Part shown: in pieces, positions 10,986-49,035 of the stretch | How positions within the stretch are numbered: position 1 is the stretch's first letter | Layout: every line of letters starts with the position of its first letter | Origin: Leifsonia shinshuensis | GTDB taxonomy: Bacteria; Actinomycetota; Actinomycetes; Actinomycetales; Microbacteriaceae | Length of the DNA stretch: 64,000 nucleotides | Direction of reading: 5' to 3' | Assembly: GCF_014217625.1 (NCBI RefSeq) | Contig: NZ_CP043641.1 | Location: forward strand, 1,736,001-1,800,000 | Notes under the pieces: model-generated | What the model was told of the DNA's origin: nothing | Database searches by the model: none | What the model saw: only the letters and a program-made list of their open reading frames with translations | Position numbers and translations under genes: made by a program

Positions 10986-11137
10986 AACGTGCTCCGGGGT
11001 CGGTGAGAGTCCGAACCGGCGGTGACAGTCCGCGAGCGGGAGGCGAGAGCCCCCTGCTGAACCGGTGGAATTCCGGTACCGACGGTAATGCGTGCAGGCG
11101 AGAGCCTGGGCGCTCAGTCCGGATGGGAGGCGCACGT
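10986..11137 (+). ncRNA. FMN riboswitch (RFN element)
   Basis: The leader of ribD contains the conserved FMN aptamer. P1 pairs GTGC near 10989 with GCAC near 11132. Inside are GGTGAGAGTCCGAACCGGCG, GGTGACAGTCCGCGAG, CTGAACCGGTGGAATTCCGG, ACCGACGGT and AGTCCGGATGGGAG, in the order of the known six-stem junction. A further hairpin (CGGCGGTC/GACCGCCG, 11138-11162) follows directly and is a candidate expression platform. There is no U-tract, so control may act on translation of ribD or through Rho. FMN binding should switch the downstream rib operon off. Confidence 0.95.
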
Positions 11138-11235
11138 CGGCGGTCCGCGTTTTCGACCGCCGCGAACGCGAGCTTTCGGCTCCAGCGACCCCGGCACCAC
11201 GTCTCGACGGCAACGAGAGACAGGACGACGCCCGG

Positions 11236-44385: not shown

Positions 44386-45567
44386 TCAGCTCAGGCCCGC
44401 GATGGTGGAGGACATCATCGCCAGGATGACGGGCACAACGCCGAGGAGCACGAACGCGGGCAGCACGCACACGCCGAGCGGGAGCAGCAGTCGCACGGCG
44501 AGAAGCTCCGCGCGCCGCCGCCCGTCGGCGCGGGCGGTCCGTCTCTCCTGCCTGGCTTCGGCGGCCAGCAGCTCGATCGCGGGCGCGCCTGCCCGCTCCG
44601 CGATCCGGAGGACCCGGTCGACGGAGGTGTCGCCCTCCGCGACGAGGTCGAGCCCGACGCGGCGTGCGACGTCGGCGATCGTCGCCCGGGCTGCCGGCAC
44701 CGACAGTCCCCCGGCCAAGGCGATGGCCGTCAGATCGTGCTCGATCCCCGGCACCGGCCCCGCCCGCGATGCCGACCGGATCAGACTGCGGGTCCAGGAC
44801 CGCCCGGCGACGAGCAGGCCGCCGCCGGAGATCGCCGCGACCCAGCCGAGCGGCCCGGTGACCAGCGTGCCGATGACGTCGACGCCGATCCCGTAGGCCA
44901 TGGCGACGCCGACGGCCGGAAGCCAGGACATCAGCCGTGCGGTGGCTCGGGGGCCGGCCAGAGCGGTCGCGATGTCCCGCTCCGCTCCGGCACGGTCGCG
45001 CAGGGCCTCGGCTGCGCCGCGCAGAGCGGGCGCGATCGAGGCTCCGGCGTACTCGGCGACGCCCCATGCCGCCGCCACCGCGGCCATGCCGGCGTCGCCC
45101 GCGGTTCCGTGACTCTGCTGCGCCGAGGTGCTGTGTGTGGCCGCGGGCTCGCGCGCCGACGTCGGGCCGCGCCACGCCGCAACGCCGAGCGCCGCGTGCT
45201 CGGCATGGCCGCCGGACGCCCGGCCATGCCGCCCGGCAAGCCCGAACGTCGCTCCGCCGCCGTAGCCGCCACGCGCCAGGCCACGCCGCGCCGCAGCGCC
45301 GGACGCCGCTCTTCCGACGTGTGCACCGGGAGTCGCGCCGGGCCGCGCCGCCGCCGCAAGCGCCTCGGAGGGCGCCGTCCCCTCCGCGACGAGTCGCGCC
45401 GCCCGGGCGACGGCCGGGTGCGTGGCCTCCGCGGCCACGTACTGCCACGCCGAGCGGGGTGCGATGCCCGCGTCCAGGAGCACAGCGAGGGCCTCCACCG
45501 AACTGGAAAGGAGGTCGTCGGCGGGACGGCCGCCCCGGCCGCGTGCCGCGTTCCGTCGTTCACTCAT
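44386..45567 (-). CDS. Type II secretion F-domain protein, TadB/TadC fused
   Basis: A 393-residue inner-membrane platform protein for Flp pilus assembly. The first F-type domain is split: one half at about 15-60 (SSVEALAVLLDAGIAPRSAW) and the rest from about 150, with paired helices near 215-250. A second F-like domain follows at 260-390 (DLTAIALAGGLSVPAARATI, two final helices). Most actinobacteria encode these as separate TadB and TadC. Residues 75-145 are an Ala/Gly/His/Arg-rich low-complexity insert (codons at about 45130-45345). It overlaps the ATPase gene. Confidence 0.78.
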   Translation of the reverse strand: MSERRNAARGRGGRPADDLLSSSVEALAVLLDAGIAPRSAWQYVAAEATHPAVARAARLVAEGTAPSEALAAAARPGATPGAHVGRAASGAAARRGLARGGYGGGATFGLAGRHGRASGGHAEHAALGVAAWRGPTSAREPAATHSTSAQQSHGTAGDAGMAAVAAAWGVAEYAGASIAPALRGAAEALRDRAGAERDIATALAGPRATARLMSWLPAVGVAMAYGIGVDVIGTLVTGPLGWVAAISGGGLLVAGRSWTRSLIRSASRAGPVPGIEHDLTAIALAGGLSVPAARATIADVARRVGLDLVAEGDTSVDRVLRIAERAGAPAIELLAAEARQERRTARADGRRRAELLAVRLLLPLGVCVLPAFVLLGVVPVILAMMSSTIAGLS

Positions 45568-46741
45568 ACGGCACCACCGCCAGGCGGCCGTCCGGCGATG
45601 TCGTGAACCGGCCGAAGCCGGCGACGCGGCGCCGGTCGCCGACCCGTTCGACGTGGACGATCATCCCGATGGCGCTGATCGTCTGGCGGGCGGTCGCGAT
45701 GTCGTCCAGGCCGGCGAGCGCGCCGAGAGCCTCCATCCGTGCGGGGACGTCCGCCAGCGAGTTCGCGTGCAGGGTTCCCGCCCCGCCGTCGTGGCCCGTG
45801 TTCAGCGCGGAGAGGAGGTCGGCCACCTCCTCTCCGCGGCACTCGCCGAGGACGAGCCGGTCCGGTCGCATCCGGAGCGCCTCCCGCACCAGTCGCCGCA
45901 GGCCAACGCCGCCGGCGCCCTCGAGGTTCGGCTGGCGCGTCTGCAGGCCGACGACGTGCGGGTGCGGGATGCGGAGCTCGGCGACATCCTCGATGAGCAC
46001 GATGCGCTCGGTGGGAGGCGCATGGGCCAGGGTCGCCGCCAACAGTGTCGTCTTGCCCGCGCCGCCTGCCCCGGTCACCAGGATGTTCGCCCGGGCGGTC
46101 ACCGCCGCGCGGAGCAGGGCGACGCCGTCGGAGGTCAGCGAACCGGCGCCGACGAGGTCGTCCAGGGTGAGGGCAGCAGCCGCCGGAATGCGGATCGACA
46201 GCAGTGTTCCTCCGGTCGAGATCGGCGGGAGCACCGCGTGGACGCGCACACCGCCGGGAATTCGCACGTCCACGAACGGGGTCGCCTCGTCGATGTGACG
46301 CCCTCCGGTGGCGATCAGCCGGGTGGCCAGCCGACGGGCGGCGTGGAGGTCGGGCGGCCAGCCGTCCACCCGGTGGAGCCCGCGCGGGCCGCCGTCGGAC
46401 CACAGCACGCCGTCGCCGGTGACGAAGAGGTCGGTGACGCCGGCGCGCATCAGGTACGGGGCCAGCGGTCCGAAGGTCTCCCAGAAGTCCGGGGCGGCCG
46501 CCGTGTGCGCGGGAGGCGGCGCCGTCCGCGGTGGCGGCGCGCTCATCGATGGCGGGCCAATCGGTGACGACCCGGTCCCCGATGGCGGCAAGACCATGGG
46601 CAACACCCCAGCCCCGCGTACCGGTGGCCTCGGCGGCACCCTCACCGGCGCACCGCGCGCACCACTCACACCACGCACATGCGGACCGACCACCCCCGCC
46701 CGGGCGATCGACGGCGTACTCCACTCGTTCGAATTCCTCAT
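45560..46741 (-). CDS. tadA: Tad secretion ATPase (CpaF/TadA family)
   Basis: The 393-residue motor ATPase of the Flp pilus system. A proline/alanine-rich N-terminal stretch (1-80) is followed by the core: Walker A GAGGAGKTT near residue 230, IEDVAELRI (Asp box), RPDRLVLGECRGEE (Walker B) and the histidine motif GTLHANS. It is the first gene of the cluster on the minus strand. The start is ATG 46741 or GTG 46747; neither has a strong ribosome site. The 6C RNA gene lies about 110 bases upstream on the same strand. Confidence 0.9.
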   Translation of the reverse strand: MRNSNEWSTPSIARAGVVGPHVRGVSGARGAPVRVPPRPPVRGAGVLPMVLPPSGTGSSPIGPPSMSAPPPRTAPPPAHTAAAPDFWETFGPLAPYLMRAGVTDLFVTGDGVLWSDGGPRGLHRVDGWPPDLHAARRLATRLIATGGRHIDEATPFVDVRIPGGVRVHAVLPPISTGGTLLSIRIPAAAALTLDDLVGAGSLTSDGVALLRAAVTARANILVTGAGGAGKTTLLAATLAHAPPTERIVLIEDVAELRIPHPHVVGLQTRQPNLEGAGGVGLRRLVREALRMRPDRLVLGECRGEEVADLLSALNTGHDGGAGTLHANSLADVPARMEALGALAGLDDIATARQTISAIGMIVHVERVGDRRRVAGFGRFTTSPDGRLAVVPYE

Positions 46742-46853: not shown

Positions 46854-46935
46854 AAAAAAAGGGGGGCCGCACCTATTGGGGGGAACAGGTGCGGCCACTG
46901 CGGCGCATGATTGGGGGGAATCGATTGCGCCGCAC
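46854..46935 (-). ncRNA. 6C small RNA
   Basis: On the minus strand two consecutive hairpins each show a six-cytosine loop: stem TGCGGCGCA/TGCGCCGCA (46899-46934) and stem GGCCGCACCT/AGGTGCGGCC (46865-46896). Both loops contain TTCCCCCCAA. The second stem is followed by CCCC and seven T (46860-46854), a textbook intrinsic terminator. This is the defining structure of the actinobacterial 6C RNA, and the place beside tad genes matches other actinobacteria. GATAAT at 46947-46942 is a good -10 placing the 5' end near 46935. Function is regulatory, by C-rich loop pairing with mRNA. Confidence 0.92.
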
Positions 46936-46941
46936 GCCAGA

Positions 46942-46947
46942 ATTATC
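46942..46947 (-). promoter_or_regulatory. -10 element of the 6C RNA
   Basis: GATAAT on the minus strand lies 6 bases before the probable 5' end of the 6C RNA. No convincing TTGACA-like -35 is seen at 16-18 bases (CGTAAA or GCGTAA only), so expression may need an activator or another sigma factor. Confidence 0.45.
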
Positions 46948-47085
46948 ATTCGGCCGCTGCCTAGTTTACGCAGAATCAATGCAAACGCAAGTCTGCTCGG
47001 AGGCCGCTACCTGGGGGTTGTAGAGTCAGGGATTGTCGCGCCACGACTCGAACAACAGCATCGCAAAGGAGCGAAAAGACTCCCC

Positions 47086-49035
<1,950 letters not shown>

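Follow-up and report, generated by a model that had tools for sequence, protein, structure and literature searches.

A predicted 6C (B11-type) small RNA between acs and the tad genes of Leifsonia shinshuensis

We believe that positions 46854-46956 of the minus strand, in the 64-kb stretch of L. shinshuensis DNA analysed here (the window), are a genuine 6C RNA as judged from comparative sequence evidence, that is, a known actinobacterial small RNA which is called B11 in mycobacteria. The explanation that we favour, at a probability of about 0.8, is a stand-alone trans-acting sRNA of about 103 nt with its own promoter and terminator, the C6 loops of which would silence mRNAs with G-rich ribosome-binding sites. 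The structure is deduced from covariation, the promoter and the RNA itself from conservation across the family Microbacteriaceae, and synteny points the same way. The L. shinshuensis 6C RNA is a regular family member, of use chiefly because standard RNA annotation overlooks it.

The predicted RNA gene and its promoter

The features considered are as follows.

46854-46956, minus strand: predicted 6C RNA, about 103 nt; 5' end placed 7 nt after the -10 element
46985-46990, minus strand: predicted -35 element TTGCGT of the 6C promoter (hexamer conservation, 137 loci)
46963-46968, minus strand: predicted -10 element TAAACT of the 6C promoter (hexamer conservation, 137 loci)
46936-46954, minus strand: P1, the 5' hairpin, conserved in Microbacteriaceae; contains GATAAT
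46899-46934, minus strand: P2, hairpin with the first CCCCCC loop (46918-46913); from folding, covariation and the RF01066 alignment
46865-46896, minus strand: P3, hairpin with the second CCCCCC loop (46883-46878), stem of the predicted intrinsic terminator; from folding and covariation
46854-46860, minus strand: T7 tract of the predicted intrinsic terminator, 3' of P3; from the sequence
47086-49035, plus strand: acs, acetyl-CoA synthetase, 649 aa, divergent; Pfam ACAS_N, AMP-binding and AMP-binding_C
45560-46741, minus strand: cpaF-like tad secretion ATPase, next gene downstream; Pfam T2SSE, 151.2 bits
44386-45567, minus strand: tadB/C-like gene of the tad locus; Pfam T2SSF, 43.2 bits

The minus strand from 46968 to 46854 holds the TAAACT hexamer, three hairpins and the T7 tract. 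Two hairpins with CCCCCC loops and a T7 terminator had been described by an earlier reading made from the sequence alone (the sequence-only reading), and both observations are correct: the hairpins are at 46934-46899 and 46896-46865, and the T7 tract (46860-46854) comes after the second. P2 and P3 with their flanks have a minimum free energy of -43.2 kcal/mol (z -8.6), and the stretch 46961-46848, which covers the RNA including P1, reaches -50.4 kcal/mol (z -5.1); none of 200 shuffles was as stable in either case. According to the folding, P3 with the T7 tract makes a good intrinsic terminator. The assignment to the 6C class, made in the same reading, is upheld by RF01066, which matches over its full length at 39.9 bits, and further by the conservation of the stretch, by covariation and by the adjacent tad genes.

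The promoter has to be moved. The sequence-only reading took GATAAT for the -10 element; the letters exist (46947-46942), but they are the loop and inner stem of P1 (46954-46936), and a -10 role is rejected because the hexamer is part of a conserved hairpin with compensatory changes. The conserved elements lie further upstream. At a fixed distance from the loops, 61 of 137 loci have TACACT as the -10 hexamer and another 41 have TAAACT; hexamers starting with TTG sum to 121 among the 14 commonest -35 sequences, and the spacer is 16 in 114/137, figures which describe a fit and not a blind discovery, considering that the script sought such motifs. In L. shinshuensis the arrangement TTGCGT (46990-46985), a spacer of 16 and TAAACT (46968-46963) is most likely a conserved promoter of the housekeeping type; the RNA then most likely starts near 46956, outside the interval 46854-46947 that had been proposed for it.

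A near-perfect 20-base palindrome, TGTCC..GGACA (e.g. TGTCCTCATTTATGAGGACA), is found just upstream of the 6C -35 element in 30/137 loci, L036, L044, L061 and L103 among them, within the control region common to acs and 6C. The promoter of L. shinshuensis 6C does not have this element.

The Microbacteriaceae branch of the 6C family

A search with the Rfam 6C covariance model, suggested along with the sequence-only reading, was answered in two ways. In the 241 bases searched, RF01066 matched over its full length (model positions 1-75; 39.9 bits, E 3.7e-4), and the gathering score of 47 was not reached. Rfam at gathering scores accordingly does not report the locus, and a genome-wide Rfam search at E <= 0.001 gave no match there; default annotation misses the L. 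shinshuensis 6C since 39.9 bits is below the cut-off. The cut-off is tight for Microbacteriaceae generally, for the members of the family straddle it: RF01066 matched 38 of 150 genomes at E <= 0.001 and only 5 of 150 above 47. Elsewhere in the window, at 10986-11138 of the plus strand, an FMN riboswitch scores 80.7 bits, above its own cut-off.

We refer below to R1, a covariance model built from 68 sequences (alignment A1), all of them from Microbacteriaceae. It finds one copy in the L. shinshuensis genome (E 3.1e-40). The analysis thus provides a corrected promoter, a three-hairpin model and, in R1, a model that matches 121/150 family genomes, against 5/150 at the Rfam cut-off; the two counts evidently come from the same draw (equal tallies of genera and of complete genomes), and the better reach of R1 in Microbacteriaceae is expected of a model made from family sequences. 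Its scores are slightly understated, since the R1 structure has P3 one column off. The 29 genomes of 150 without an R1 match include, among the 20 listed, several reduced ones (0.9-2.1 Mb) and others of full size.

In a class-wide draw R1 matched 10/197 genomes, eight of them Microbacteriaceae, and RF01066 matched 108/194, 83 over the cut-off. The two R1 matches outside the family (20.8 and 21.3 bits) do not coincide in position with the RF01066 matches in those genomes and were taken as chance. R1 and RF01066 see complementary parts of one family.

The distribution is similar by other means. DNA search of 60 relatives found the 6C stretch in 35, namely in 28/28 genomes of the genus (L. shinshuensis included), in 7/9 from other Microbacteriaceae genera and in 0/23 from other families of the order. 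Over this stretch, loci from the window's genus show complete identity with those of named Leifsonia, e.g. L019 and L033, L. poae, in keeping with the genus. A loop-pattern scan of named genomes gave at least 120 stretches; the names among the matches listed are mostly those of Microbacteriaceae, with Leifsonia, Agromyces, Cryobacterium, Rathayibacter and others among the genera.

Covariation was counted at 100 R1 loci (99 distinct sequences), chosen without regard to the loop sequence. The three-hairpin structure is paired in 88.9% of cells, and 29 of its 33 pairs changed on both sides; the covariation score is 0.400 versus 0.195 (sd 0.006) after shuffling, none of 500 shuffles being as high, and at most 0.084 in controls with slid partners. 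Compensatory changes at these loci support P1, P2 and P3 alike.

P1 deserves a separate comment. All six of its outer pairs have compensatory changes and 83.8% of cells are paired (99 distinct sequences), in an alignment which was fitted to a model already containing P1 and hence leans towards it. Folded alone, independently of the model, the P1 stretch gives a hairpin of at least 6 pairs in 100/101 distinct relatives, with a median z of only -1.67 (78/101 below -1, 4/101 above 0). RNAalifold on A1 supports P2 and P3 with compensatory changes and does not predict P1, the loop of which varies in length, so that a plain alignment blurs it. Not every 6C has such a 5' hairpin: of 29 RF01066 loci outside Microbacteriaceae, 13 by our reading form a terminal hairpin of at least 5 pairs in the 40 nt upstream.

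The sequence-only reading also drew attention to an 11-base sequence, TTCCCCCCAAT, common to both loops. It is indeed present at 46920-46910 and 46885-46875, and the significance implied for it is not supported. The count was made at 119 of 120 loci (one truncated contig was missed), examined without the loop pattern; the pattern-scan loci were picked by the 11-base pattern itself and are unfit for this purpose. Exact matches occur in loop 1 of 86/119 relatives, in loop 2 of 59/119 and in both loops of 51/119, and exact identity as a rule was rejected on the last figure. Six C are found in loop 1 in 97/119 and in loop 2 in 95/119, runs of five being next. Part of the identity is explained by the UU..AA flanks, which are the pairs closing the loop. 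Among small-genome relatives (L188-L194, L205) both hairpins are kept, some with five-C loops and altered flanks.

Runs of six G and of six C are strongly avoided in the 64-kb window and in 400 kb of the genome. GGGGGG occurs 6 times on both strands of the window versus 68.7 expected from dinucleotide shuffles, and three of the six are the complement of the 6C gene. In 307 script-called reading frames (400 kb of genome) there are 12 G6 runs versus 144.7 expected, and 6 C6 runs versus 97.8. The idea that 6C drives the avoidance of G tracts was rejected, as G6 and C6 are avoided alike in coding sequence.

Neighbouring genes and the readings based on them

The divergent position of acs, noted earlier with a distance of 150 bases, is confirmed, its ATG being at 47086, 139 bases from 46947. 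The tad genes had been mentioned as neighbours of 6C elsewhere; this is to be amended, since at the L. shinshuensis locus too the gene that follows the RNA on its strand is cpaF. Within 1.5 kb, acs is divergent in 128/141 loci and cpaF is downstream on the same strand in 125/141. By source, acs and cpaF are found at 28/29 and 29/29 of the DNA-search loci and at 100/112 and 96/112 of the pattern-scan loci; the two sets share some species, and 13 pattern-scan loci on each side have flanks shorter than 800 bases. At the 35 Microbacteriaceae loci found by R1, without the loop pattern, the values are 31/35 for acs and 32/35 for cpaF. The acs-6C-tad order, being so constant, gives an easy genetic entry to the question of which core function of 6C is conserved.

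Outside Microbacteriaceae, 3 of 30 RF01066 loci have cpaF within 1.5 kb and none has acs; ten neighbour frames from such loci comprise four ParA/MinD-like, one T2SSE and five without a match. The tad neighbourhood is shared with these families; acs was found as a neighbour in Microbacteriaceae alone.

Such constancy can be read in several ways. The RNA could act in cis on the tad operon, as a leader or attenuator, with read-through into cpaF when the terminator is disturbed, e.g. by pairing of its C loop. The frequency of cpaF on the same strand, also among R1 loci, is in favour of this, and Rfam types the 6C family as Cis-reg; against it, acs is equally constant on the other side, the gap between 6C and cpaF varies widely (reaching 1.7 kb at one locus and 4.1 kb at another), and the homologues, in the cited parts of the literature, are free RNAs of about 93-100 nt acting in trans. 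We consider a leader or attenuator improbable. That the acs-tad gap holds a mere terminator or structured spacer, with incidental C loops, is scarcely credible to us: P3 and the T7 tract would indeed terminate well, but this leaves aside the compensatory changes in P1 and P2, the conserved promoter and the persistence of C6 loops despite the strong avoidance of C6 and G6 in the genome.

It is likewise improbable, in our opinion, that 6C is mainly tied to acetate or carbon metabolism through control common with acs and has targets unlike the mycobacterial ones. The promoter region is common with the divergent acs in most relatives, the TGTCC..GGACA element precedes the 6C promoter in 30/137 loci, and the cited part of a study on Corynebacterium glutamicum places 6C in the network of GlxR, a carbon regulator (PMC4046766). 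The same element is absent from the L. shinshuensis promoter, and acs is missing at the 6C locus in some relatives, e.g. L029, L059, L163 and L175. A broader proposal, unlikely as it stands, would combine these features with the favoured trans-acting function: a distinct family-wide 6C branch, almost wholly unannotated by default Rfam and locked between acs and tad with control common with acs, in which acetate use, tad pilus expression and translational silencing by 6C form one regulatory node. A literature search gave no description of 6C in Microbacteriaceae among the matches listed.

The proposed trans-acting RNA: known relatives, mechanism and targets

Returning to the stand-alone trans-acting RNA, we presume the mycobacterial mechanism to be the best bet for L. 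shinshuensis because the anatomy is the same. The comparison extends a functionally studied mycobacterial regulatory RNA to the large family Microbacteriaceae. In the parts of the M. marinum report on B11 that are cited here (PMC12395582), lead probing gives three stem-loops, two of them C-rich and the last being the terminator, with a housekeeping-type promoter just upstream, as we propose for L. shinshuensis; the terminator loop is the seed for repression there, which is backed by compensatory mutations. The C-rich loops of mycobacterial B11 base-pair to G tracts in the vicinity of ribosome sites, according to the sections cited. In M. abscessus, as the cited part of PMC10470900 has it, one C loop, no matter which, is enough for repression of a reporter that has a G6 leader, and the genes that go up upon deletion are enriched for complementary ribosome sites; so far as the cited parts go, the two papers disagree on whether loop 2 matters.

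There are differences in detail, as far as the cited parts of the sources describe. The loops have 6 and 6 C in L. shinshuensis versus 6 and 9 in M. marinum B11; the -10 hexamer is TAAACT versus TATAGT ahead of the three stem-loops (PMC12395582); and L. shinshuensis has cpaF directly next to 6C and acs on the other side, whereas mycobacterial B11 lies in the Rv3660-Rv3661 intergenic region. In C. glutamicum, 6C is a free transcript of about 100 nt by Northern blot; cgb_03605 extends 27 nt further 5' than the Rfam match, the L. shinshuensis P1 is in the corresponding place, and the cgb_03605 loops differ in having eight C (PMC4046766, cited in part). With RF01066 in general the L. shinshuensis RNA has in common two hairpins with C6 loops, ordered and spaced alike, its actinobacterial origin and the adjoining tad genes; its stems and loop flanks (UU..AA around the C run) differ, and the Rfam model is without a 5' hairpin.

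The following course of events is proposed. Transcription of the 6C RNA would begin at its own housekeeping-type promoter between acs and tad and stop at its own intrinsic terminator, and the product would fold into three hairpins. Both C6 loops, of which one sits on the terminator hairpin, would act as seeds and pair with G-rich tracts at or near the ribosome-binding sites of mRNAs; the pairing would block translation, with loss of the mRNA as a consequence. The sequence-only reading had supposed that the C loops bind G-rich targets such as ribosome sites, and this agrees with the pairing demonstrated by others for mycobacterial B11, in the cited parts of those reports, and may apply here by analogy. 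We infer from the mycobacterial case that the loops pair and repress likewise in L. shinshuensis, and the same analogy would indicate which mRNAs are hit.

A search for targets of this type gave no conserved one, at the level of six G before ATG in the genome and of one candidate followed in 27 orthologues, and we accordingly put no mRNA forward as a target. The window has no GGGGGG 4-12 nt before an ATG or GTG opening a frame of at least 100 codons, and the whole genome has 36 matches to GGGGGGN{3,12}ATG versus 32 for the reversed pattern, i.e. no enrichment. Thirty of the 36 places were inspected (two are one site) and ten frames scanned with Pfam, which gave a LacI-type regulator, a Phd/YefM antitoxin, a beta-lactamase-family protein, a FAD-binding protein, PLDc_N and five without a match. 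The LacI-type regulator was rejected as a conserved 6C target, the six G at its start being kept in only 2/27 orthologues of the genus; the starts of two further frames with G6 leaders are not conserved in alignments. The counts and the LacI result leave room for species-specific targets.

Outside the phylum, the Xanthomonas sRNA sX13 also has C-rich loops; from the cited part of PMC3771888, the resemblance is one of description only.
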